A stretch of DNA of 64,000 bases from Bryobacterales bacterium (GTDB lineage: Bacteria > Acidobacteriota > Terriglobia > Bryobacterales > Bryobacteraceae), in contig PNAJ01000057.1 in assembly GCA_003170295.1 (NCBI GenBank), positions 1 through 64,000 of the forward strand, written 5' to 3'. The notes beneath the pieces are model-generated. The model saw only the letters and a list, made by a program, of their open reading frames with translations, had not been told where the DNA came from and did not search any database. Numbering within the stretch: the stretch's first letter is position 1; every line of letters starts with the position of its first letter. Shown here in pieces: positions 4,004 to 51,585 of the stretch. The position numbers and the translations under genes are program-made.

Positions 4004-5113
4004 GTGAAAAAGCTGCTCATGCTGCTATTCAGCATCGCGGTTGTGGTCAACCCGATGGTTGCTCAACGCCGCAAGCCCGTCTACGACCCTGAAACGAAAG
4101 AGGGTTTACTGATCCAGCACATTCAGCAGGAGCCCGATCCCGCGGAGAAACTCCATTATATGGAGCAATTTATCGTGCAATATCCGGCGAATCCCTCTAT
4201 CGGATGGGTCTACGACCAGATTCTGCCGGCCTACGTGAAAGAGCAGGCATGGGACCAGGCCATGCGGATTGGGGACAAACGGATTGCCCTCGATCCGGAG
4301 GATCTGGACGCCGCCAAGCTATCGCTCAAAGCCGCCGAGAGCCAAGGGAATCGGGAGGATATTGCAACGTGGGCAGATCGTTCCTGGCAGGTCGCGTCGA
4401 GAGTCGCCGCCAAGGGTGGACGCAACGCCGCCGACGCCCAGCAGATGCAACTGTACGCGGAGTATACGTTCTTTTCGATCGCGCAGCAGACGCCGGACCC
4501 GGCTACGCGCATCGGGATGCTGAAGAGCTTGCAGGAGAGGAACCCCAAGAGTCCTTACGCCGAGAATATTCCGGCGGAGTGTTTTGCCATCTACAAGAAG
4601 CTCAACCAGATGGACAAAGCGCTCGCGCTGGCGGACAGGACGCTTGCCGAGGACCCCGACAACGTCGATATGCTAATGGCGGTATCGGAGTTTTATTTCC
4701 CCACAGGGGACGGGCGTGAAAGAGTAATCGCCAATTCGGTCCGCGTGATCGACGCTCTGGCGAAGAAGCTGCGTCCCGCGAGTTTGGGAGAGGAAGATTG
4801 GGCCAAGAAAAAAGCCCATATGCTGGCGAGCGCGTACTACATGGGAGGAGTCGCCAACAGCCTTACCGCCCAGTATGGTCGCGCGGACCAGATGCTTCGG
4901 GAGGCGCTCCCGCTGATCGCAGGCGACGGGACGCAAGAGGCGACCGCGTTTTATCAACTCGGTATCGCGAATTATCACCTGGCGGACAAGGATCCGTCTC
5001 GCGCCAAGGAAGCGCTGGCGTACTGGAGACGCTGTGCGTCGATAAAAAGTAATTTCCAGGCGCAGGCGGTGAAGAACGTCCAGGCGGTTCGTGTCGAGTT
5101 CAACTTACCGTAA
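4004..5113 (+). CDS. Secreted TPR-repeat protein
   Basis: A 369-residue protein with an N-terminal signal (KKLLMLLFSIAVVVNPMVAQ) followed by helical repeats with the tetratricopeptide pattern, for example AWDQAMRIGDKRIALDPED and MDKALALADRTLAEDPDN. The GTG at 4004 is chosen over an upstream in-frame start at 3950 because a perfect AAGGAGGGA ribosome site (3992-4000) precedes it and it starts the signal peptide. TPRs mediate protein-protein contacts, here in the periplasm or outer envelope. No partner is evident: the neighbours are a divergent transporter and a convergent nuoI. The product is a typical acidobacterial exported tetratricopeptide protein of unknown role. Confidence 0.85.
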   Translation: MKKLLMLLFSIAVVVNPMVAQRRKPVYDPETKEGLLIQHIQQEPDPAEKLHYMEQFIVQYPANPSIGWVYDQILPAYVKEQAWDQAMRIGDKRIALDPEDLDAAKLSLKAAESQGNREDIATWADRSWQVASRVAAKGGRNAADAQQMQLYAEYTFFSIAQQTPDPATRIGMLKSLQERNPKSPYAENIPAECFAIYKKLNQMDKALALADRTLAEDPDNVDMLMAVSEFYFPTGDGRERVIANSVRVIDALAKKLRPASLGEEDWAKKKAHMLASAYYMGGVANSLTAQYGRADQMLREALPLIAGDGTQEATAFYQLGIANYHLADKDPSRAKEALAYWRRCASIKSNFQAQAVKNVQAVRVEFNLP

Positions 5114-5117
5114 CGGT

Positions 5118-5233
5118 ACACAGACTGAAGTCTGTGCCACCTCTGCTATCGAACGTGTTTCTTAATTGGTAGCGTAAAGCATATCGATGCTCGAAAAGGA
5201 GCGCGAACTCCGCTTCCTGCGGTCGCGGCTCGG
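5118..5233. repeat. Intergenic hairpin plus third GGTCGCGG unit
   Basis: The hairpin CACAGACT-GA-AGTCTGTG (5119-5136) followed by CCAC lies just after the TPR gene stop, and may also act in termination. GCTTCCTGCGGTCGCGGCTC (from 5212) matches the units at 1621 and 1677. The spacer between these holds no gene. Confidence 0.75.
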
Positions 5234-5269
5234 TAGAGAATTTGATTAACGGGTAGCGGTGAAGGAGAC

Positions 5270-5776
5270 TCAGTGGCCGCCCGATTCCACGGGCTCTTCG
5301 GCTTTCAGCGGGAAATGGGCGCCCTTGGGAATGGGAACCAGCATCTGCTCTTTGCGGTAAATCAGCGTGGAGGTGTTGTAGCTGGCGATCTCAAAGCCGT
5401 GGCCGTGGGTGATGGCATCGGTGGGGCAAGCCTCCACGCAGAAGCCGCAGAAGATGCAGCGATTGTAATCGATGTTATAAACCTTGGCGTAGCGTTCGCC
5501 GCCGCTGATTCGCAATTGATCGGTGTTTTCGGCAGCTTCAATGTAGATGCAATCGGCCGGGCAGGCCGCCGCGCACAGAAAGCATGCGACGCACTTTTCG
5601 AGGCCGTTTTCGTCGCGCTGCAGTTCATGGACGCCGCGAAAGCGCTCCTGGAACTTCGCCGGAGCTTCCGGATAATCCTCGGTAATGGTCGGTTGCAGCA
5701 TCTCCATGAAGGTGATGCCCATTCCCTTTGCAATTGCCGCCGCACCGCCGAGCACCTCAGAAATTTTCGAAGACAT
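5270..5776 (-). CDS. nuoI: NADH-quinone oxidoreductase subunit I (NuoI)
   Basis: A 168-residue two-cluster ferredoxin subunit of complex I that carries electrons through clusters N6a and N6b in the peripheral arm. Both eight-cysteine-type motifs are intact: CVACFLCAAACP and CIFCGFCVEACP, each followed by typical sequence (ADCIYIEAAE, TDAITHGHGFE). The N-terminal KGMGITFMEMLQPTITEDYP region matches the NuoI lead-in helix. It is not next to other nuo genes: a redoxin precedes it by 48 bases and a TPR gene is convergent, so this may be an extra copy or a detached subunit of a split complex I locus. Confidence 0.95.
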   Translation of the reverse strand: MSSKISEVLGGAAAIAKGMGITFMEMLQPTITEDYPEAPAKFQERFRGVHELQRDENGLEKCVACFLCAAACPADCIYIEAAENTDQLRISGGERYAKVYNIDYNRCIFCGFCVEACPTDAITHGHGFEIASYNTSTLIYRKEQMLVPIPKGAHFPLKAEEPVESGGH

Positions 5777-5824
5777 TCTATGTAATGTTATCAGCTTCCC
5801 GACCGGAGGCTAGTTTTTCGATCC

Positions 5825-6271
5825 TCAACCGGCCTTCCACGCGGGGACTGCCTCGTCCGCGCGGAAAGGCACGCCGATCGCTTCCAGATCCGATTTGAGG
5901 AAACCCTCGGTTGCGCGCGAGATCGTGCCATCCGCTTCGACCAGAAACAGGCTCGGCACGTGAGCGATGCCGAACGCGTTGCTTACCGGATAGCCTTCCT
6001 CCTGGTGGTCGAGCAGGGTCAGAATCGTGAGGCCGAATTTTGTCTGGAACTTCCGGGTAGCGGCCGCCTCGTCTTGCGAAATCGCGAGGACTTGCGGGGA
6101 ACCGTTTTTGATTCGCTCCAGAAACGGCAGGGTGAACTGGCAGGTCGGACAACTGATTTTATAGAGGACTACGAGAAGCGGGCCGCGCGAAAGCAAAGCG
6201 GCGAGCGAGTGTGGCGATCCGTTGAGATCGTCGAGAGAGAATTGGGGAGCTTTTGATCCTGGATAGAGCAT
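5825..6271 (-). CDS. Thioredoxin-fold redoxin (AhpC/TSA-like)
   Basis: A 148-residue thioredoxin-fold protein. The start (PGSKAPQFSLDDLNGSPHSL) is the lead-in typical of the AhpC/TSA/redoxin family, and the active site is a CxxC in VVLYKISCPTCQFTLP rather than the PxxxTxxC of true 2-Cys peroxiredoxins, so a thiol-disulfide reductase or bacterioferritin-comigratory-type role is likely. The cis-proline region (GIAHVPSLFLVEADG) is present. No signal peptide is seen, suggesting a cytoplasmic protein. It lies 48 bases upstream of nuoI on the same strand and could share its transcript. Confidence 0.85.
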   Translation of the reverse strand: MLYPGSKAPQFSLDDLNGSPHSLAALLSRGPLLVVLYKISCPTCQFTLPFLERIKNGSPQVLAISQDEAAATRKFQTKFGLTILTLLDHQEEGYPVSNAFGIAHVPSLFLVEADGTISRATEGFLKSDLEAIGVPFRADEAVPAWKAG

Positions 6272-6327
6272 ATTTAGTTCTGAAGATCACAGCGGCGAAA
6301 TTCTCGACGTCGGCGACACCGGACGGG

Positions 6328-6368
6328 CCGATCCGGGGATCGGGCGCGGACCAGGGGGTCCGCCCCAC
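6328..6368 (+). repeat. Double hairpin repeat ending in CCCCAC
   Basis: First stem CCGATCC-GG-GGATCGG (6328-6343), second stem CGGACC-AGGG-GGTCCG (6347-6362), then CCCCAC (6363-6368). Nearly the same element lies at 34587-34627 in the opposite orientation. It sits between the divergently placed end of the STAS gene and the start of the redoxin gene. Confidence 0.85.
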
Positions 6369-6425
6369 TCGGAAGGGAAAATGAGTTTTTCAGCAATCTC
6401 TGCCAGCCTGCACCACATGGAACAT

Positions 6426-6836
6426 CTATGCGATCGGCTCGTCCTTTTCAGCCTGGACGAATTTCAAAATATCGAAGTGCTTGATCTCGCGGTCGGGGAA
6501 AAAGCTGTTCACGGCGTCCTGCTCGTCGGCGAAAACCTCAAAGATGGTGTGCAGCTTGGTGAGTAACAGGAGCTCCACGTTGCGCTTGTTCGGATTCACC
6601 AGCTTCAGCGCGCCGCCCGCTTTTTTAAGCGACGTGAAACAGATCACCATCGCTCCGAGGCCCGTCGAATCGATGTACTCGACGTGTTCCAGGTTCAAGA
6701 GCACGTTCACGTTTCCGGTGGCGGCGACGGCGCTGACCTTCTCGCGCACCTGGCTCGCCTCGCCCACCGTCAGACGGCCCTTCAGCGAAAGGATATCAAT
6801 CCCCTCGCGCGAACTTTCATGAATATCGAGACTCAT
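6426..6836 (-). CDS. STAS-domain anti-sigma factor antagonist
   Basis: A 136-residue SpoIIAA/RsbV-type protein. The signature LNLEHVEYIDSTGLGAMVIC carries the serine (in DSTGLG) that partner-switching kinases phosphorylate; unphosphorylated antagonist binds the anti-sigma kinase and frees a sigma factor or other partner. About 30 residues beyond the usual STAS end (REIKHFDILKFVQAEKDEP) form a charged tail. Its start lies inside the 3' end of the histidine kinase gene (20-base overlap), which puts it in the two-component operon, where it could link phosphorelay input to partner switching. No RsbW-like kinase is in the window. Confidence 0.93.
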   Translation of the reverse strand: MSLDIHESSREGIDILSLKGRLTVGEASQVREKVSAVAATGNVNVLLNLEHVEYIDSTGLGAMVICFTSLKKAGGALKLVNPNKRNVELLLLTKLHTIFEVFADEQDAVNSFFPDREIKHFDILKFVQAEKDEPIA

Positions 6837-8343
6837 TAGACGTTAGTGTAGCGGACTCGGCGGGGATCGGGTCCGGGGCTGGCACACCCGAGGGCAGCAG
6901 GACGGTGAAGCGCGTGCCAACGCCCGAGTTGCTGGCGACGTCGATGCGTCCGCCGTGCGCTTCCACGATCCAGGCGACGAAGCTCAATCCCAGTCCTAGG
7001 CCCTGGATGGAGTTGGTCTGCGCATTGCGCACGCGGTAGAAACGATCGAAGATGTGCGGCAAATTTTCCGCCGGGATGCCGACGCCGGTATCCTCGACGG
7101 AAAGCTTGGTCCAGCCGGGCTCTCTCGCCGGGCCCACGACGACGCGGACCGATCCGCCCTTGGGCGTGTATTTCACGGCGTTCGACAGCAAGTTGGAGAG
7201 GAGCCGCTCCATCTGGGTGCGATCCGCTTCGACAGGCGCGCACGGCTCGATCGAAGCCGCCAGAGTCACTTCTTTTTCTTCCGCTGGAATCTGGAATTGA
7301 TCGACCAGGTCGGTGACCACGCCGCTCAAATCGAGCGGCGCCTTTTGCAATACGAGTTGCCCGGATTCGGCCTGCGACAGCAGCAGCAGGGCGCGCACGA
7401 TGCTGGAGAGTTTTTCAATGTCCTCCATGGCATTGATGATCGACTCGCGATACTGGTCGGGTGTCTCCGCGGTGAAGAGCGCGACTTCGAGCTGGCCGCG
7501 GATGGCGGTGATGGGAGTGCGCAGCTCGTGCGAGACGTCGGTCGAGAAACGGCGGACCTGCTCGAAGGATTGATGGAGCCGCTCCGTCATCTGGTTGAAG
7601 CTATCAATAAGGTGATCGAGCTCGTCACCCGCGCCGCGCAAGGGAATCTGCACCGTGATATTCGAGCCGGTGACGTTCTGCGCCGCGTGGGCGACGGAAT
7701 TGACGGGGCTGATGGCGATGCCTGCCAGCCACCAGCCGAACAGGCTGGCGAGGACCAACATTGCGGGGGCGAGCAGGAGGTAGCTTCGGGTGAAACTATC
7801 CACCGTCTTGTACTGGATGGCAAGCGAACGCCCGATGGCGAGGAAGTATTTGTCTTTTCCTTCGTCATCGTGCATCCACCCTTTTTCGATCATGTACGGA
7901 ATTCCGTTTTTGTCCTTGCTAATCTTGAACTCCCCAGTGGCGGGCCCTTTTAACATACGGGCGATTTCCTCAGGGGAATCGAATCCTATGGAATCATAAA
8001 GCTCTGAATTCTGCACCACGTTGCCGTCGGCGTCGGCAAGGAAATAGATACGGCGCAAACGCTCGACAATGAAACCTTCTTCCGGGTCCGTGAGGTCCGC
8101 AACCCATACCGGGCGTTCGTTCTTAATGTGAAGATACAGCTTCATCGCCTCCCAATCGGACGAGACGGTGAGTTGTGTGTCGGCCTCCGCTTCACTCTTC
8201 AGATGCCGCCAGAAGAAGAAACCGATGGCCGCCAGGAGGATCGCGAAGAACGCTACGTAGCTCACCGCGAGGCGGAAACGCAGCCCGCGCATGAATCCTA
8301 CTCGCAGTTGGCGGACTCCGAAGACTCGCGTGAAACGGGCCAT
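6817..8343 (-). CDS. Membrane sensor histidine kinase (HAMP-HisKA-HATPase)
   Basis: A 508-residue sensor kinase. Helix 1 is at about 24-46, a periplasmic sensor domain at 47-185, helix 2 at 188-211, HAMP to about 262, HisKA with phospho-acceptor H272 in FSTDVSHELRTPITAIRG, and the ATPase domain with the N box (NLLSNAVKYTPKGG), G1 box (VEDTGVGIP) and GLGLGLSFV. Organisation resembles CusS/IrlS heavy-metal kinases. Upstream lie a sensor-only paralogue (3-base gap) and the OmpR-type regulator; the STAS gene overlaps its end. It most likely phosphorylates the regulator encoded at 8948-9640. An alternative start is the ATG at residue 18, which aligns better with the paralogue. Confidence 0.95.
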   Translation of the reverse strand: MARFTRVFGVRQLRVGFMRGLRFRLAVSYVAFFAILLAAIGFFFWRHLKSEAEADTQLTVSSDWEAMKLYLHIKNERPVWVADLTDPEEGFIVERLRRIYFLADADGNVVQNSELYDSIGFDSPEEIARMLKGPATGEFKISKDKNGIPYMIEKGWMHDDEGKDKYFLAIGRSLAIQYKTVDSFTRSYLLLAPAMLVLASLFGWWLAGIAISPVNSVAHAAQNVTGSNITVQIPLRGAGDELDHLIDSFNQMTERLHQSFEQVRRFSTDVSHELRTPITAIRGQLEVALFTAETPDQYRESIINAMEDIEKLSSIVRALLLLSQAESGQLVLQKAPLDLSGVVTDLVDQFQIPAEEKEVTLAASIEPCAPVEADRTQMERLLSNLLSNAVKYTPKGGSVRVVVGPAREPGWTKLSVEDTGVGIPAENLPHIFDRFYRVRNAQTNSIQGLGLGLSFVAWIVEAHGGRIDVASNSGVGTRFTVLLPSGVPAPDPIPAESATLTSNESRYS

Positions 8344-43176: not shown

Positions 43177-44313
43177 CTACTGGTTGCTGTTGGCGAACTG
43201 CAAAAAGACACTACCTTGAGCGACAACTTTTTCGCCCTCCTTCAATCCGCTCACAATTTCGGTGTCCTCTCCCTGCTCCACGCCAATGTTGACTAGACGC
43301 TGCGCGAATTTCCCGGGCGAGGCTTCCACATATGCGAACGGCAGGTTTTCGTCGTTGCGCAGAATGGCGGAGGTCGGCACGGTCAGCACGCTCCTTCCTG
43401 ACCGGGTGTGGATTACGGCGTCGACGAACATATCCTTCTTCAGCAGGCCGTCGGGATTTTTCGTGACGATACGCACTGAAGTGGTGCGGGTCGCGGGATC
43501 GATCAGGGCTTCAATATACGCAATCACTCCATGGAACGTCCGGTGGAAAGAAGAGTCCGTCTCTTCGACCGCGTCGCCGATGCGAACCGCTTCCAGATCG
43601 CGATCGTAGATGTGGCCCTGGACCCACACGCTGGACGTGTCGCTAATAGTGAAGCAAGCGGTGGTGCCGGCCTGGATCACTAAACCGGGCGTGACCAGTT
43701 TCTGCACGACCATGCCCGAGATCGGCGAGCGGACGGCCAGTTGCGGATTGATCGGGGTGCCTTGATGCTGCGCATCGTCGATCTCCTGTTCGGTCACGCC
43801 GAAAATTTTCAGTGCCTGGAGATCGTTTTCAGTTTCGGCGCGAGCATCGTTATACTCCTGCTCGGCAGCTTCCAGATCTTTGGTGGCGATCACTTTATGT
43901 TCGAGCAGGTCCTTGCTCCGATCCAGGGTTTTCTTCGAATAATCCTGGTGGTTGCGAGCTTTCTTATAGGCCGAGATCGCGGTGGCCACGTCGGGGCTCG
44001 ATACGTAGAGCAGCGGTTGATTCACGGTGACTCGCGTGCCCAAATCCACCAGTAATTTTGAAATTGGCCCGTTCACTTGCGTGATCGCTTGCGTGGTGTG
44101 ATCCGAGTCCCAATCCACGGTTCCCGTGGTGCGAACCACGGAGGACCAGGCGGTCCTCGTAACTTCGGCGATTTTCAAATGCGGTAGCTGCTTGGCGGGC
44201 ACTTCGAATAACGCGGCCTCGTCCGTCTGAGCGGCCGCGGCGGCTGGGGGAGCTTTCTTATAAAGACCACAGGAGCAGGTCGCGAGCATCGCCGCCCAGA
44301 GAATCAGCTTCAC
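43177..44313 (-). CDS. czcB: Heavy-metal efflux periplasmic adaptor (CzcB-like)
   Basis: A 378-residue adaptor with an N-terminal signal and cysteines near residues 13-15 (MLATCSCG), possibly a lipoprotein anchor. Core: beta-barrel start (WSSVVRTTGTVDWDSD), lipoyl halves (GPISKLLVDLGTRVTVNQPL and LAVRSPISGMVVQKLVTPG), helical hairpin between, then WVQGHIYDRDLEAVRIGDAV and a final domain with SAILRNDENLPFAYVE. These last blocks are typical of CzcB/CusB-type metal adaptors. GTG start overlaps the czcC stop by 4 bases. It bridges CzcA to the CzcC outer-membrane channel. Confidence 0.93.
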   Translation of the reverse strand: MKLILWAAMLATCSCGLYKKAPPAAAAAQTDEAALFEVPAKQLPHLKIAEVTRTAWSSVVRTTGTVDWDSDHTTQAITQVNGPISKLLVDLGTRVTVNQPLLYVSSPDVATAISAYKKARNHQDYSKKTLDRSKDLLEHKVIATKDLEAAEQEYNDARAETENDLQALKIFGVTEQEIDDAQHQGTPINPQLAVRSPISGMVVQKLVTPGLVIQAGTTACFTISDTSSVWVQGHIYDRDLEAVRIGDAVEETDSSFHRTFHGVIAYIEALIDPATRTTSVRIVTKNPDGLLKKDMFVDAVIHTRSGRSVLTVPTSAILRNDENLPFAYVEASPGKFAQRLVNIGVEQGEDTEIVSGLKEGEKVVAQGSVFLQFANSNQ

Positions 44314-45563
44314 GGGATCACCTGCGTTCCGACGGCTTGATTCACTTGCTCGACTGCAATCATCTGCGCCGCCAGCGCTTGACGGTAGGCAAGCTGCGTC
44401 GCCCGATAGCTGCGCTCGGCATCTAGGAAATCGAGAATCGATGCCGCGCCGCGCTGAAACGCGTAGTTGCTGATATCGCGAGAATCGGTGGCCTGTTTGA
44501 GATACCCGCTTTCATAAAGGACCACGATCTCCTCGTCGCTTTGCAGCGCGAAATAAGCATTGACGACGTCGGTGAGCACGCCCACCTGGGTCGACGACTC
44601 GGTTTCGATGGATTGGCGCACTGCACTTTGACTGCGCGCGATCTCGCCCTGATTGCGGTCGTGAATCGGCAGTTCCATGGAAAATGACGCACCCACTCCG
44701 TTGGAGCCGTTGGAGTTCGCATAGTCTCCGCTGAAGGTCCAATCGCGCGCGCGGTTTCCAAAAGCCAGCGACACGGTATCGTTGGCGAGCTTCACGCCGG
44801 TGTGCGCGGATTGCAGATCCGGCCGCGTATCCAGGGCTTTCTTCTGGAGATCGTCGAGGGTGAGGGAGGGCTTGGTGTGGACGAGGGATCCACTGACGTC
44901 GAAATCATCCGTCACGGATTGGTAGCCGAGCTGTTGGCGAAGGGTCGCTCTCGCCTGGACGAGGCCGAGCACGGCGGCGGAAACGTCCTGCTCGAACTGG
45001 AGTTTCTGGAGCGACAACTTGAGATAATCGCCTTCGGCGAGGTCGCCCGCGACCAGGCGCGCATGATTCAGGTCGAGCTGTTGAGAAAAATTCGCCAAGT
45101 CGTCTTTAGCAAGCTGGAGAACGGATTTCGCGAGCAGAACATTGATGAATGCCTGAGCGGTTTGGAATTTCAAGGTCCGTTCATTGTCGGTAACCGTCTG
45201 CGCGGCAACTTGGGTGTTGTCCTTGGCCACGACCACACGCTTTTCGCGCTTGCCGCCGCGCTCCACTGTATAACTGAGGGCTTCTGAATAGACTTGAGTA
45301 TTAAAGCGGATCGTGCCGGGAGAAAAAACCGGGATTGCATCGACGAGAGTGCTCAAGGTCGGATTCGGCTTGAGGGAAGCGGTGACTTCCTGCGCCTTCG
45401 ACTGGTCGATATTCAATCGGTTCGCGCGGAGCGCCTGATTGTAGGCAAGAGCAATCCTGATGGCATCGTCCTTCGAGATTAATTTGGAGGGAGCGTCGGC
45501 GGTCTGCGGAATAGCAGGGCAGACGAAAAGGACGGTACTAATTGCGATCCGCCGAAAGCTCAT
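44310..45563 (-). CDS. czcC: TolC-family outer-membrane channel (CzcC-like)
   Basis: A 417-residue outer-membrane efflux protein with a signal peptide (RRIAISTVLFVCPAIPQTAD) and two OEP repeats of long coiled-coil helices (DDAIRIALAYNQALRANRLN; DDLQKKALDTRPDLQSAHTG). LKPNPTLS follows the first helix as in CzcC/NccC proteins, and RGAASILDFLDAERSYR is the conserved end-of-repeat motif. It overlaps czcB and belongs to the metal-efflux operon. It could also serve the MdtABC-like pump, which has no channel gene of its own nearby. Confidence 0.93.
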   Translation of the reverse strand: MSFRRIAISTVLFVCPAIPQTADAPSKLISKDDAIRIALAYNQALRANRLNIDQSKAQEVTASLKPNPTLSTLVDAIPVFSPGTIRFNTQVYSEALSYTVERGGKREKRVVVAKDNTQVAAQTVTDNERTLKFQTAQAFINVLLAKSVLQLAKDDLANFSQQLDLNHARLVAGDLAEGDYLKLSLQKLQFEQDVSAAVLGLVQARATLRQQLGYQSVTDDFDVSGSLVHTKPSLTLDDLQKKALDTRPDLQSAHTGVKLANDTVSLAFGNRARDWTFSGDYANSNGSNGVGASFSMELPIHDRNQGEIARSQSAVRQSIETESSTQVGVLTDVVNAYFALQSDEEIVVLYESGYLKQATDSRDISNYAFQRGAASILDFLDAERSYRATQLAYRQALAAQMIAVEQVNQAVGTQVIP

Positions 45564-45924: not shown

Positions 45925-47103
45925 ATGAATCGACGCGATTTTCTGGGCGGCGTGGCCATGGTGGGGTTGGGCGGGTGCGCCCGCAAGGCCAGAATCGTTG
46001 CGCCCTCCGAAGTACTCCCCAAGCTGATGCCGATCCGGGCGCAGGCCGACCGAATCTTTCGGGTCACGGTGTGCCTGCGGCCGTTTCGCGCGGCCGGGCC
46101 CCGGCTGGATGTCGAGCGTGTCGGGGATAAGACCGTGGTGCACAACTATGGGCATGGCGGCAGTGGCTGGTCGCTTTCGTGGGGATCGAGCAGCATCGCG
46201 GTCGAGAAAGCGATGGCCGCTTTGCATACGCTCGACGCCGAGAAAGACGTGGCCGTCATCGGATGCGGCGCGTTGGGGCTGACGTCGGCGATTCTGCTGC
46301 AAAGCGCGGGCGCCAAGGTTACGATTTATGCCAAGGAGCGGCCACCCGAGGTGCGGTCCGCCCGAGCCACGGGATCGTGGACGCCCGATTCACGGATTGC
46401 GTTGACCAACTCCGTGTCGCCCGATTTTCCAGCGCTGTGGGAGAAGATGTGCCGCACTTCGTTTCACACCTATGAGAGCTATCTGGGCATGGCGGGGAAT
46501 CCCGTGGAATGGACCGATCGTTACCAGCTGTCGGAGAAAAGCCCGGCTGAGGCGCAAGCGAACCGGCGGAGCGCCGAGACGCTCGAGTTTGCGCACTATC
46601 AGGACCGGGTGAGGGATATCACACCGCGGTCTCAAGATTTGCCGCCGGGAACGCATCCTTTTCCAACCCGATATGCCAGGCGAAATTCGAGCCTCACTTT
46701 CAATATTGCGAGCTACTCCAGGCAACTCGTTACCGACTTCTTGATCGAGGGCGGCAAGATCGAGAGGGTCGAGTTTCAAACGCCTTCCGAGTTGAGCCGG
46801 TTGGCCCAGAAGGTCATCGTCAACGCGACCGGCTACGGAGCGAGGGCGCTGTGGAAGGACGAGTCGATTGTTCCCGTGCGGGGGCAAATTGCTTGGCTGA
46901 TTCCGCAGCCCGAAGTAAATTACGGAGTGCAATATAAGAACGTGAATATCCTCGCGCGGCGGGACGGGATCGTGGTGCAGGACGGCGGCATCGGCGAGAT
47001 GGACGGATACAACGACGCCAACGAGCAACCCGATCGGGGAGCGGCGGAATCCGCAGTGAAGGTGGTGGCGGAGTTGTACGGGCGGATGAGCGGCCAGCGC
47101 TAG
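45925..47103 (+). CDS. Exported FAD oxidoreductase related to D-amino-acid oxidase, in permuted order
   Basis: A 392-residue protein. The start NRRDFLGGVAMVGLGGC combines a twin-arginine motif and a lipobox-like LGGC, so it is probably a Tat-exported, lipid-anchored flavoprotein. At 50-87 it has CLRPFRAAGPRLDVER and HNYGHGGSGWSLSWG, blocks that in D-amino-acid and D-aspartate oxidases form the C-terminal end; the FAD Rossmann motif VIGCGALG, normally at the N-terminus, follows at about 111-118 with IYAKERPPEVRSARATGSW. The C-terminus (RGQIAWLIPQPE, then GIVVQDGGIGEMDG) corresponds to mid-protein in the standard enzyme. The order thus looks circularly permuted. Substrate unknown. Start ATG 45925 is preferred over an in-frame TTG three codons upstream. 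Confidence 0.85.
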   Translation: MNRRDFLGGVAMVGLGGCARKARIVAPSEVLPKLMPIRAQADRIFRVTVCLRPFRAAGPRLDVERVGDKTVVHNYGHGGSGWSLSWGSSSIAVEKAMAALHTLDAEKDVAVIGCGALGLTSAILLQSAGAKVTIYAKERPPEVRSARATGSWTPDSRIALTNSVSPDFPALWEKMCRTSFHTYESYLGMAGNPVEWTDRYQLSEKSPAEAQANRRSAETLEFAHYQDRVRDITPRSQDLPPGTHPFPTRYARRNSSLTFNIASYSRQLVTDFLIEGGKIERVEFQTPSELSRLAQKVIVNATGYGARALWKDESIVPVRGQIAWLIPQPEVNYGVQYKNVNILARRDGIVVQDGGIGEMDGYNDANEQPDRGAAESAVKVVAELYGRMSGQR

Positions 47104-47120
47104 TGGCCCGTCTCTGAAGT

Positions 47121-47229
47121 GTGGGGCAGACGCTCTCGTCTGCTCCGGACCCCCTGGTCCGGCTCTGGCAACGCTCTTAAAACGGAGGCCGACGAGGGTG
47201 TCGGCCGCAGGCCGGGGGGCCTGCCCCAC
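47121..47229. repeat. Two hairpin repeats facing each other
   Basis: First copy, minus orientation: GTGGGG (47121-47126) with GCAGACG-CTCT-CGTCTGC (47126-47143) and CCGGACC-CCCT-GGTCCGG (47145-47162). Second copy, plus orientation: GGCCGACG-AGGG-TGTCGGCC (47187-47206, one G-T wobble), GCAGGCC-GGGG-GGCCTGC (47207-47224), CCCCAC end (47224-47229). They fill the space between two convergent genes. Confidence 0.88.
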
Positions 47230-47248: not shown

Positions 47249-48712
47249 TTACCTCACGGTAAACAGCGATTGACGCTGTTGCTCGATGCGCTTGGGGTAG
47301 GCCGCGAGCAGCTCCTTCTTCGACGCGAGCCACGCCTCGGTCTGTGAGATTTCGGCTTCCGCTTCTCCAATGGCATCGCGTACCGGTTCGATCGCCGGCC
47401 CGCCGGGTATGCGGCGAACCTCGACGAAATTTATCGGATCGAGGGCTTTCAGCAGATCCGCGCGCGGCGTCCGCAAAGGATGTGCGCTCACAAGGGCATC
47501 CACCATCGCGCCAGGGGAATAGTTGCCGCGAAGATCGCGGACGGCCGCCGAAACGATGTGATGGGCCTCGCGAAAACTCATTGGCTCGGAGCGCACCAGC
47601 GTATCAGCAAGCTCGGTTACGCTGAGGAAATCCGCATTCCCGCGTTCGGCCATGCGCGCGATATTCACTTCGCAGTTCTCGACAACGCCGCCAAATAGAC
47701 GGAGCGCCCGCAAGGCCTCGGCGGTCATGGTAAAGACCAATGGCTGCAGATCGTCCTCGCTGTCGACGATGTCTCCGAACGGCGTATTGTGGGACGCGAT
47801 GAAGATACTCTGCGACTGGCCGAGGGCCTTGCTCGCAAGGATGCGCACGTGTTCAAACGCCACCGGGTTGCGTTTCTGAGGCATGATGCTGCTGATCTGC
47901 ACCCAGGCATCGGAGAGCCGTAGAAAGCCGAATTCGGCGGTACACCAAAGCAGGAAATCCTGCGTCACCTTGCCGAGATTCACCATGCAGATAGCGATCG
48001 CACCGGCGGTTTCCGTCACGTAATCGGTCGCGGCGATCGCGCCATAGGAGTTCAGTTGCAGCCCTTCGAACCCCAACAGCTCCGTCGTGAATTGCCGGTC
48101 TATCGGAAAGCCGGTGGTGGTGATGGCGCAAGCTCCCAGTGGATTGCGGTTCACGGTCGCGAAGGCTGCCTGCAATCTTCGCTCGTCGCGGCCGAGCAAC
48201 TCGATGACTGCTAGTAAATAATGCGCGAGTGTCGTGGGTTGAGCCGGTTGCGTGTGGGTGTAGGCGGGCATGACGGTACGCACATGATCGCGGGCGGTTG
48301 CCAGCAATACTTTGCGCACGGCATCAATGGCGCCAACCACGTCTAGAATCTCGCGACGCAACCGCATCCGGTATTGCGTGATGTCGATGTCGTTGCGGCT
48401 GCGAGCCGTGTGCATATGCCCTGCATTCTCCGGTCCGCAGGCGCGTTCGAGGGCCGCTTCGACGTGAAAGAACAGATCCTCGTACTGGCCGTCGAAGGGG
48501 GCGCGAGCCAGCTCGGCGCGATCGAGCGAATCGAGTCCTTCAAGACAACGCCGCGCTACGCCCAGAGGAATAATCCGCTGGCGGGCCAGCATCAAGGTGT
48601 GCGCGTAGTGAATTTCCAGCAGCGCTTCGAGAAAGTATCGCTGCGCGTCCGCGAAATTAACGGCCAGCACCGTCTCGGCATAAACCGACGCTGGAAACTT
48701 CTCGGCTTCCAT
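47249..48712 (-). CDS. argH: Argininosuccinate-lyase-family enzyme
   Basis: A 487-residue member of the fumarase/aspartase superfamily, argininosuccinate lyase branch. Conserved regions: HMHTARSRNDIDITQYRMRL, PAYTHTQPAQPTTLAHYLL and the signature SSIMPQKRNPVAFEHVR, where the common MPQKKNP is MPQKRNP. The ATG at 48712 overlaps the TonB receptor stop by one base (TAATG), so the two are translationally coupled. That is odd for arginine biosynthesis and hints at a lyase acting on an imported aspartate- or succinate-adduct. No other arg gene is near. A true biosynthetic ArgH remains possible. Confidence 0.88.
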   Translation of the reverse strand: MEAEKFPASVYAETVLAVNFADAQRYFLEALLEIHYAHTLMLARQRIIPLGVARRCLEGLDSLDRAELARAPFDGQYEDLFFHVEAALERACGPENAGHMHTARSRNDIDITQYRMRLRREILDVVGAIDAVRKVLLATARDHVRTVMPAYTHTQPAQPTTLAHYLLAVIELLGRDERRLQAAFATVNRNPLGACAITTTGFPIDRQFTTELLGFEGLQLNSYGAIAATDYVTETAGAIAICMVNLGKVTQDFLLWCTAEFGFLRLSDAWVQISSIMPQKRNPVAFEHVRILASKALGQSQSIFIASHNTPFGDIVDSEDDLQPLVFTMTAEALRALRLFGGVVENCEVNIARMAERGNADFLSVTELADTLVRSEPMSFREAHHIVSAAVRDLRGNYSPGAMVDALVSAHPLRTPRADLLKALDPINFVEVRRIPGGPAIEPVRDAIGEAEAEISQTEAWLASKKELLAAYPKRIEQQRQSLFTVR

Positions 48713-51585
48713 TACCAATCGACGCGGATTCCGAGCTGGATCAGACGCCCCTCGAGCACCGTCGAGACGGGGGCAAGCGACGGGGGAGCGGTGATCAATC
48801 CCTGCGCGTTCACGTTCGCCTTTGTGTTAAGCGTCGTAACGTTGCGGGTATTGAACACATTGTTCGCTTCCGCGAGAAATTTCGGAACGATACGCTCGCG
48901 AATCCGGAATAGCTGACGCGTGTAGCGCATGTCGACCTGATAAATGTTGCCGGTGCGCAAGGTATCGCGGCCAATGTAAGCGGGACGCTGCACCGCGGCC
49001 CCGACCGGGTCGTTATTCAGGTTCAGATTGGCGACTTCGTTCTGTTGATCGCCGACCGCAAGGTTCGCCAGCATCGTCAACTGGTTGCCGTTCGCCAGAC
49101 GCTTCATGAAAGCGTTCCCTGGGCTGAACGCCGGCGCGAGAACGGCGCTCAGGTTAAACGCCTGCGGCCGGTTCACCAGCGTATTGCCTCGATCGTAGGC
49201 GCGGCTGAATGGATTTTGGATCACCGCATTCTGCTCAAAGCTGTTTGCGTCCGGAGCATCGCTGATGGCATGCGACCAGGTATAGTTGGCGTTCACCTCG
49301 TACCCCTTGGAAGAGCGATGAACGTACGTCACGATCATGGCGTTATAGTTCGATACGGCTCCCACATCCTGGAGGGTAATGGCGTTGAACTGCGGATAGA
49401 GGCGCGTCGCCGCGTTTACCGCCGTCGAGAATATGGGACGCCCATCGGCGAGGGTTCCGGTCGGGTTGATGAGGTTCATGTCGCGCAAAAATCCGAGGTC
49501 GCGCGCGCCGGTGTTCGCGTATCCGAGAATAATCTTGTCGTTCTGCGACAACTGCTGCTCCACTTGAATGCTGGTATTCATGGCGTAGGCGTTCTTGAAA
49601 CCGGGCGTGACCGCGAAGATGCTGGGCGGCGCCGGCAGCGTGGCTCCGGGCAGGAAACTGAAGACGTTCGGGAACGCGGGCGCGCCGCCTGTCGAGGGAG
49701 AGAACGAGTCTGTGAACGCGCGCGTCGATCCGTCGTTGACAAAGGAGTTGTACCAGAGATTCGTGGGCGGAGCTTCGTAGAACATACCCCAACTGGCTCT
49801 GACGACGGTCTTCGGCGTCACCTTCCATGCCAGGCCGAGCCTCGGCGCAAAATCGCGGTTGGGCGTGTGGAAATTCTGGGTGTATGCGAAAGGCGCATTC
49901 GTCTCGCCACCGGGAGCCTGATAACGATCCCAGCGCAGGCCGTAAATCAGCAGCAGGCTCGGGCGTACCTGCCAGGTGTCCTGGGCATAGAAATCGTAGA
50001 AATACGATTTGTAAGAAGCGCCCGGCGTTCCAAGAACCGTTTGGAAAGACGAGTACGAGAACGGATTGGCGCCGCTTTTCGCCGACAAATACGCCGCGAC
50101 GCTGGGGAATGTGTACGCGCTGTAAACATCGCCGATCTGGTTATCGTTGTTCAACTGCCAGCCAAATCCCGCCTTGATTGTGTGAGAACCCTTGACCTTG
50201 GTGAAATTGTCGCTGACGCTCGGAATCTTCTCGCCAAAGCGGTCGCCCGCATTCTGAGTGCCGTTGAAGGTTGCGACGCCGGTAATGGTAATCTGCGGTC
50301 CCGGACCCGTAAGCGCGTCCGCCACGTGATGCTCGTTGCGATAGGGTTCGGAGGCGCGCAGCTCGTTCAAGGCCGTCGCCGAAAAGGTTGTGAGAAGTTG
50401 GAGACCGCCGACGTGCGCGCGATCTTGAAAATCCACGCCCGCGGCCAGCGCGTTCAAGCCGCCATTCTGAGTGTTGAACGGGTACACGTTGCGAAAGTAA
50501 TCGTAGCGGAAGAACATCTGGTTTTTTTGGTTGATGTTCCAATCGACGCGCAGATCCAGGAACTGGACGTGCTGCACCGTGGGCGAGGTGGCGAGCTGGG
50601 ACGCTGGAATCCCGATCTGCGCCGCCGCGGTGGGATCGATCGTCACAGGCACCGGAGTGCCGCGCAGCAAGTGCTCATAGCCGCCGAAGATGAAAACCTT
50701 GTCCTTCTTTATCGGCCCGCCGGCGTTGAACGCGTAATCATGCAGATCGATACTCGCATTGGCCCTGTTGGACGCCAGCAGAATGGTGCGCGCGACCGCG
50801 TCTGGTGGACGGCCGATGAAGTAGAACTCGCCGTGGAAAACGTTACTTCCCGAATTCGTGATGACGTTGAAGATATCGCCGGCGGTGTTGCCGAACTCCG
50901 GCGCGAAGCTGTTGGATACCGTCTGTACCTCGCGAACGTAAATGTCCGAGATGGCGAACAGCCGCAGGCCATAGCGGTCGGTTTCGGTGTCGACCATTCC
51001 ATCCATTTGGTAGTTGATGCGGTCGAGCAGTCCGTTCGTATTGAGCGTGCGCGGGATGCCAAGCTCCGGGTTCGGATGGCCGCTCAAGCCGGGCTGGAAG
51101 ATCACAAAATTATAGGGATTGCGCGAGGTGAGCGGCAGGTTGTCGACCTCGTCGTGATCGATCGTCAGGCCAGTGGAGACGCGGGACGCTTCTAAGATGG
51201 GCGCTCCACCGGTCACGTCGACCGTGGTCGTGACCGAACCGACTCTGAGCTGCGAATCGATGACAGCCTCGGTTCCAGCGTTCAGCACAATGCCCGTGTG
51301 GCGCTCAGTGTCGAAGCCCTGCTTTTTCACGATGACAGAATAGGTTCCGAGCGGCAGATTGGGAACGACGTAATAGCCTTCCTCATTGGTTTCGACGGTC
51401 CGGGCAAAACCAGTGCTCGCGTCCGCGACCGCGACGGACGCCTTGGGAACCGCGGCGCCGGTCCCATCCACAACCCTGCCGCGAATACTGCCGTTAATCG
51501 CCTGTGTCTGGGAAAAAGCAAATTGCGAAGCCAGGGTGCTGAGAAGCAGCCCGGCGAGTAGATATCGAGCGATGACTCGTGCCAT
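48712..51585 (-). CDS. Oar-like TonB-dependent receptor with N-terminal carboxypeptidase-regulatory-like domain
   Basis: A 957-residue outer-membrane protein. After a signal (LLAGLLLSTLASQFAFS) comes a CarboxypepD_reg-like domain (IRGRVVDGTGAAVPKASVAV, GYYVVPNLPLGTYSVIVKKQ), then a plug (DEVDNLPLTSRNPYNFVIFQ) and a long beta-barrel with Oar-type marks such as KGSHTIKAGFGWQ and RPSLLLIYGLRWDR. No TonB box is clear. These receptors are numerous in Acidobacteriota; ligands are generally unknown, with polymers or peptides suspected. It is coupled to the argH-like gene and divergent from PadR across 117 bases. Confidence 0.93.
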   Translation of the reverse strand: MARVIARYLLAGLLLSTLASQFAFSQTQAINGSIRGRVVDGTGAAVPKASVAVADASTGFARTVETNEEGYYVVPNLPLGTYSVIVKKQGFDTERHTGIVLNAGTEAVIDSQLRVGSVTTTVDVTGGAPILEASRVSTGLTIDHDEVDNLPLTSRNPYNFVIFQPGLSGHPNPELGIPRTLNTNGLLDRINYQMDGMVDTETDRYGLRLFAISDIYVREVQTVSNSFAPEFGNTAGDIFNVITNSGSNVFHGEFYFIGRPPDAVARTILLASNRANASIDLHDYAFNAGGPIKKDKVFIFGGYEHLLRGTPVPVTIDPTAAAQIGIPASQLATSPTVQHVQFLDLRVDWNINQKNQMFFRYDYFRNVYPFNTQNGGLNALAAGVDFQDRAHVGGLQLLTTFSATALNELRASEPYRNEHHVADALTGPGPQITITGVATFNGTQNAGDRFGEKIPSVSDNFTKVKGSHTIKAGFGWQLNNDNQIGDVYSAYTFPSVAAYLSAKSGANPFSYSSFQTVLGTPGASYKSYFYDFYAQDTWQVRPSLLLIYGLRWDRYQAPGGETNAPFAYTQNFHTPNRDFAPRLGLAWKVTPKTVVRASWGMFYEAPPTNLWYNSFVNDGSTRAFTDSFSPSTGGAPAFPNVFSFLPGATLPAPPSIFAVTPGFKNAYAMNTSIQVEQQLSQNDKIILGYANTGARDLGFLRDMNLINPTGTLADGRPIFSTAVNAATRLYPQFNAITLQDVGAVSNYNAMIVTYVHRSSKGYEVNANYTWSHAISDAPDANSFEQNAVIQNPFSRAYDRGNTLVNRPQAFNLSAVLAPAFSPGNAFMKRLANGNQLTMLANLAVGDQQNEVANLNLNNDPVGAAVQRPAYIGRDTLRTGNIYQVDMRYTRQLFRIRERIVPKFLAEANNVFNTRNVTTLNTKANVNAQGLITAPPSLAPVSTVLEGRLIQLGIRVDW

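Follow-up and report, generated by a model that had tools for sequence, protein, structure and literature searches.

One gene of the window (the whole stretch of 64,000 nucleotides that was analyzed) raises the question whether a D-amino-acid-oxidase-like flavoprotein is encoded with its blocks in a rotated order, i.e., with the normally last part of the chain ahead of the FAD motif. The initial annotation had proposed such a permutation. It had placed CLRPFR (residues 50-55) and HNYGHGG...SWG (73-87) before VIGCGALG (111-118), and these positions are exact to the residue. Its remark that RGQIAWLIPQ, near the protein end, is mid-protein in the standard order agrees with the PDB match and the alignment. 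The Tat-type and lipobox-like motifs that it had noticed at the N-terminus are found in the sequence as RRDFL and LGGC (Cys18). The features are collected in Table 1.

Table 1. Positions in the window of the permuted gene and of the features of its product (D-amino-acid oxidase: DAAO).
Feature	Position	Strand	Basis
Gene, permuted D-amino-acid-oxidase-like flavoprotein, 392 aa	45925..47103	+	open frame, ATG start, translation, relatives
Probable export signal, residues 1-18: R3-R4 (RRDFL) and lipobox L15-G-G-C18	45925..45978	+	sequence; pattern kept in most relatives
Moved block, residues 38-103, equivalent to the C-terminal end of standard DAAOs (7ct4 319-384)	46036..46233	+	PDB sequence match, rotation test
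CLRPFR, residues 50-55, in which R52 takes the position of the carboxylate-binding Arg (Arg283, human DAAO)	46072..46089	+	alignment, passages of PMC6279847
HNYGHGGSGWSLSWG, residues 73-87 (H73-G87)	46141..46185	+	sequence, alignment
Short joint, residues 104-107, from old C-terminal helix (85-102) to old first strand (108-112)	46234..46245	+	AlphaFold2 secondary structure, best rotation point
Rossmann start, residues 108-135, FAD motif VIGCGALG at 111-118	46246..46329	+	Pfam DAO start, model, alignment
RGQIAWLIPQ, residues 319-328; mid-protein in standard enzymes	46879..46908	+	PDB match, alignment
N341, aligned with the carboxylate-binding Tyr (Tyr228, human DAAO); variable in the window's subfamily	46945..46947	+	alignment
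New C-terminal end, residues 342-392, equivalent to the stretch preceding GLRP in standard enzymes	46948..47100	+	rotation test, alignment

The Pfam, PDB and Foldseek matches support the identity of the protein as a D-amino-acid-oxidase-like flavoprotein, as had been proposed. The Pfam DAO family (PF01266) covers residues 108-385 (E 1.5e-23, 84.3 bits vs. a gathering value of 27.9, model positions 1-297 of 353), and the remainder of the fold lies upstream of this match. The 16 Pfam families listed for the protein start at residues 94-111, except TAT_signal; no NCBIfam model reaches its cut-off among the 25 matches listed. According to PMC9844085, DAAOs require a GxGxxG motif at the N-terminus, and GxRPxR and YGHGGxG are described as common to bacterial DAAOs and to some glycine oxidases too. 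In the window protein GxGxxG is found at 113-118, i.e., behind the normally last block and not at the N-terminus. The Arg-Pro pair is present (R52-P53), with Cys instead of Gly as the first residue of GxRPxR, and YGHGGxG corresponds to Y75-G81.

The swapped order with respect to standard DAAOs is seen in the PDB sequence search, where the chain of 7ct4 matches in two swapped pieces, i.e., its residues 319-384 correspond to residues 43-108 of the window protein (i-E 5.4e-9) and its residues 23-243 to residues 106-326 (i-E 0.015). The same swap is obtained with 1c0i and 6rkf, the pieces being weaker. When the window protein is rotated, a single collinear match to 7ct4 results (3-352 of 357). The phmmer score is no higher after rotation (61.5 bits native, 61.0 rotated); this test thus shows collinearity and not a better score. 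An HMM built from eight relatives of standard order (L041, L043, L051-L056) was also used to score all rotations of residues 29-392. The native chain scores 89.6 bits (model 4-234) and the best rotation, cut after residues 100-102, scores 143.3 bits (model 4-311 of 318). As a control, every fourth rotation of each of the eight standard sequences was scored with a model built from the remaining seven, and the native order was the best or at most 0.4 bits off the best. A natural circular permutation is recognized by exactly this: one rotation leads to full-length collinearity, with no duplicate block.

The structure prediction that the initial annotation had suggested as a check is confident. 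The AlphaFold2 model (no templates, 32 aligned sequences) has a pLDDT of 89.4 and a pTM of 0.86; the block means for residues 41-100 are 93-98 and only residues 1-28 are below 50. It starts with strands 44-55, 63-66 and 69-73 and helix 85-102, the Rossmann part coming next (strand 108-112, helix 116-127). A second model, that of the gammaproteobacterial relative L029 (24 sequences, 88.5, pTM 0.85), has equal starting elements. For both models, i.e., for two subfamilies, ranks 1-33 of Foldseek against the PDB are DAAOs or D-aspartate oxidases, including 4qfc and 4qfd, which we take to be human DAAO. L-amino-acid deaminase, opine dehydrogenase and iminodiacetate oxidase are found at lower ranks. 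The order-keeping TM by query length is 0.47-0.55 over the best 33 matches for the window model and reaches 0.63 for the L029 model; these low values may reflect a block beyond the reach of an order-keeping aligner. Among viral structures, four are found at E ≤0.001, the best being a generic FAD oxidoreductase, and the phage sources searched gave no match to the permuted protein. It is well supported, for the order as for the fold, that the gene encodes an FAD enzyme of the DAAO fold in a circularly permuted chain order.

According to PMC6279847, Arg283, Tyr228 and Gly313 are residues with roles in human DAAO. All 88 aligned sequences have the carboxylate-binding Arg of the RP pair, and 87 of them have the glycine of HNYG, the remaining one being a masked X. 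The place of Tyr228 is occupied by Tyr in 7/9 standard sequences, 3/41 of the window's group, 23/35 of a second permuted group and 3/3 of an outer one. Asn, Ser, Phe and Leu are mostly used in the window's subfamily, and the window protein has Asn. Since the carboxylate-binding Tyr is rare in this subfamily, the substrate or its binding mode may differ.

The general rules for Tat and lipobox patterns were applied to the permuted sequences as regular expressions. An RRx-hydrophobic motif lies upstream of the block in 76/79 of them, and in 64/79 a lipobox pattern comes 8-40 residues after it; the expressions were run on stop-to-stop frames, so some of these matches may precede the true start. 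Pfam TAT_signal matches residues 1-16 of the window protein below its cut-off (E 0.064). By eye, L032, L061, L066, L080 and L098 seem to have cleavable Tat signals, L067, L068 and L136 have no signal, L091 has a Sec-like one and L137, a relative of the outer group, a Tat-like one. No twin-arginine-plus-lipobox signal was seen by eye in the nine standard sequences. The window protein is probably exported and lipid-anchored, as judged from these patterns.

The best reading is an oxidase or dehydrogenase of permuted topology that acts on amino acids (probably D-amino acids) and is exported by Tat as a lipoprotein; of these properties, we infer export, substrate class, D stereochemistry and electron acceptor. 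The full explanation, i.e., a permuted FAD enzyme of the DAAO fold that is exported by Tat, anchored at Cys18 and oxidizes amino acids, is given a probability of about 0.75. In this protein, the moved block (the GLRPxR strand, the HNYGHGG strand and the final helix) forms the N-terminus, a few residues joining the old C-terminal helix to the old first strand. The protein would probably cross the membrane folded, via the Tat pathway, and be lipid-anchored at Cys18. The amino acid would most likely be bound by its carboxylate through Arg52 above the flavin, then be oxidized to the imino acid, which would be hydrolyzed to the 2-oxo acid and ammonia, as by DAAOs. The acceptor that reoxidizes the flavin may be O2 or, for some of the relatives, perhaps a cytochrome c.

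It is possible, with chances somewhat below even, that the same permuted fold serves another substrate, i.e., that the protein is not a D-amino-acid oxidase but a periplasmic oxidoreductase whose substrate is a hydroxy acid, an amino acid modified at its N or a different amine with a carboxylate, and that it uses a cytochrome or quinone acceptor. The Tyr228 equivalent, which is not Tyr in 38/41 of the window's subfamily, and the deaminase, dehydrogenase and iminodiacetate oxidase in the lower part of the Foldseek list agree with this possibility. The invariant Arg, the conserved HNYGHGG block and the nearest structures, which are DAAOs and D-aspartate oxidases, argue against it; moreover, this Tyr is reported not to be conserved among DAAOs either (PMC9844085).

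The genomic context bears on the same point. Of 85 same-strand neighbours, 32 were selected by eye and scanned against Pfam, as were eight other genes close to L034 and L037; since neighbours were picked by eye from many loci, the following cases are hints only. On a plasmid of Kozakia baliensis (L066:364-6658), the permuted gene is found with a DadA-like dehydrogenase (361 bits, the cut-off being 383), a serine hydrolase of the beta-lactamase family, an S9 peptidase and, directly downstream, a cytochrome c. This cluster could serve the use of D-amino-acid peptides outside the cytoplasm, and its cytochrome c is a point in favour of the alternative oxidoreductase. A general partnership with cytochrome c was rejected: among 44 loci scanned for CxxCH, only that of Kozakia has one directly adjacent. 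In two gammaproteobacteria (L034:2912-9662 and L037:519-7056) the permuted gene is flanked on one side by a twin-arginine FAD-oxidoreductase-like gene and on the other by a methylamine-dehydrogenase-type cluster with heavy and light chain genes (L034 also has MauE and thioredoxin-like genes), which likewise fits another substrate. L110, L111 and L120 likewise have an S9 or S15 peptidase as the first or second neighbour.

In Rhizobium ruizarguesonis and Nonomuraea gerenzanensis a ThDP enzyme follows directly on the same strand (L067:4920-7699 and L130:13773-16496), and both permuted oxidases are without a Tat-like signal. The two ThDP enzymes are 44% identical; their best models are indolepyruvate/phenylpyruvate decarboxylase, below the cut-offs, and the Rhizobium enzyme matches pyruvate and phenylpyruvate decarboxylases in the PDB. 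If the permuted oxidase makes a 2-oxo acid, its place next to a 2-oxo-acid decarboxylase-like enzyme is suggestive. No decarboxylase is found within about 11 kb of L136 and L137, which are relatives of the same group.

No neighbour family is common to more than 7 of 42 loci, and a fixed operon is ruled out, the neighbours varying among loci. The window's own neighbours are uninformative on function: by eye, a membrane-fusion and outer-membrane efflux pair (43177-45563, minus strand) and an argininosuccinate-lyase-like gene (47249-48718, minus strand), both unrelated in function to the permuted gene. The composition at the gene is unremarkable, no promoter-like site was found around it, and terminator-like sites number 2 vs. 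1.6 expected. An open frame antisense to it (46390-47229, minus strand, 279 aa) probably results from the codon use that goes with high G+C.

The scan of genome contigs gave 41 loci: L001-L039 are permuted, L040 is cut by a contig end and L041 is standard. After removal of duplicates with an identical 150-residue core, the distinct sequences are 79 permuted (the window's included) and nine standard; the loci of the sample from the phylum of a Caulobacter genome and of one later set are outside the 79 and the trees. The permutation is genuine and is kept in relatives from different bacterial phyla; conservation of the order among homologues had been suggested as a check, and the same order is found in many independent genomes. 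Matches were found in: (i) 30/150 genomes of the window's order, a permuted gene of nearly full length being present in 28, a gene divided between two contigs in one (G149) and a fragment in another (G088); (ii) 34/297 of its phylum, 26 permuted, 7 standard and one unassigned by match coordinates (G301); (iii) 15/337 of the class of the Caulobacter genome, all permuted; (iv) 20/398 of the phylum of that genome, each a single match collinear with the permuted profile; (v) 2/321 of the class of a Pseudohongiella genome, one permuted (the centre genome itself) and one standard; (vi) 1/116 of the phylum of a Chlamydiae genome, in standard order, which is the centre genome itself. These samples overlap in part, each centre genome is counted within its own sample, and standard-order genes are under-counted since the search profile was built from permuted sequences. 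Only 2/16 genomes of the window's genus match (G000, i.e., the window's own, and G149), so the gene is patchy. The window's genome also holds a standard-order gene on another contig (L043, G000:C64). The four copies in plasmid records (Niveispirillum, Kozakia, Rhizobium and Nonomuraea) are all permuted; the Nonomuraea record labelled as plasmid is 11.85 Mb.

Three loci are of separate interest. L139 (G1279:C7:147734-148786) is a permuted gene with one in-frame TAG within the match. A permuted member that has a Sec-like signal and is very divergent (L091 and L143:4114-5295) belongs to a small genome of 1.9 Mb in the Caulobacter class sample. In L102 (G097, 4818-7398) a partial copy (profile 268-375) lies downstream of a full permuted gene, with small genes, antitoxin-type by eye, between the two; it was rejected as a tandem intermediate, being a copy of the permuted gene itself without bearing on the origin.

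After rotation, the permuted and standard sets are the two sides of one branch (SH-aLRT 99, quick tree of 88 rows). In a careful tree of 47 rows, which were selected for spread and exclude the long rows L091 and L092, this split has 100/100 support and is found in 100% of 200 bootstrap trees. The long rows L091, L092 and L043 are placed with less certainty. The initial annotation had considered that a permuted, exported version may be a distinct subfamily, and a single branch divides 79 permuted sequences from nine standard ones. One permutation event is thus enough, and a single origin would suffice for the sampled sequences, the tree being unrooted and giving no direction. The permuted sequences form the window's group (41 rows), the second (35) and the small outer one (L067, L068, L091); the groups were separated at 40.5% identity to the window protein, with L027, L028 and the three rows of the outer group assigned by hand.

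Permutations are thought to arise through a duplicated or fused intermediate. A detached C-terminal piece of a DAAO fused ahead of an otherwise standard DAAO (i.e., a duplication or domain addition) would fit that supposed route, and is very improbable here: a single rotation aligns the standard model almost throughout (4-311 of 318), and 0/88 sequences have two copies of the block. The C-terminal repeat of the NYGHGG block that would have spoken against a permutation is absent from all 88, and fusion or block repeat is ruled out by this absence of a second copy.

The gene is under purifying selection: dN/dS is 0.07-0.12 for the whole gene and 0.02-0.04 for the moved block in six pairs, rough values since dS is mostly >1 (near saturation) and infinite in one part. 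In 5/6 pairs, those where all parts are comparable, no other part of the gene has a dN/dS as low as that of the moved block. That the gene is decayed, or an artefact of assembly or annotation, as the fragmented genome of the window (168 contigs, 82.86% complete) could suggest, has practically no chance and is ruled out by this selection and by the same order in many independent genomes, some of few contigs and at least 98% complete. The rotated order is common to many other bacteria and is thus an old, working rearrangement and not an error.

The comparison with known systems leads to the following: (i) DAAOs (Rasamsonia emersonii 7ct4, Rhodotorula 1c0i, pig 1kif, human 2du8) share with the window protein the FAD motif, the Arg of the RP pair, the HNYGHGG and RGQ blocks and the predicted fold, and differ from it by one cut that rotates the block order, by its twin-arginine and lipobox motifs and by the variable place of Tyr228; (ii) D-aspartate oxidases (human 6rkf, Cryptococcus 9vpf), which are among the best structure matches, share fold and motifs, whereas the window protein is rotated and nothing in it indicates acidic substrates; (iii) the standard-order bacterial relatives (L041 of Chlamydiae, L051-L056 of the window's phylum, L092, and L043 of its own genome) are on the other side of the tree, a single rotation being enough to make L041, L043 and L051-L056 collinear with the window protein.

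It is uncommon for large enzymes to be circularly permuted in nature. No naturally permuted D-amino-acid oxidase was found described in the literature, among the matches listed. Among FAD enzymes, PMC3779223 describes a natural permutation between PutA proline dehydrogenase and MTHFR, in a TIM barrel, i.e., a fold unrelated to that of the window protein; the permutation of LucY is engineered (PMC4408115).

In the permuted protein, a known fold takes a new topological form. A wider scenario is rather doubtful as a whole: one ancient permutation would have founded a separate, widespread bacterial lineage of DAAO type, mostly Tat lipoproteins outside the cytoplasm that give electrons to periplasmic cytochromes, the substrate having changed in the window's subfamily. 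Both chain orders coexist, even in the window's genome, so that natural pairs allow tests of how moving the chain ends affects folding, FAD loading, export and the electron acceptor. Family definitions that demand an N-terminal FAD motif, and aligners that assume the order, would miss or misread the permuted lineage, which may provide exportable oxidases.
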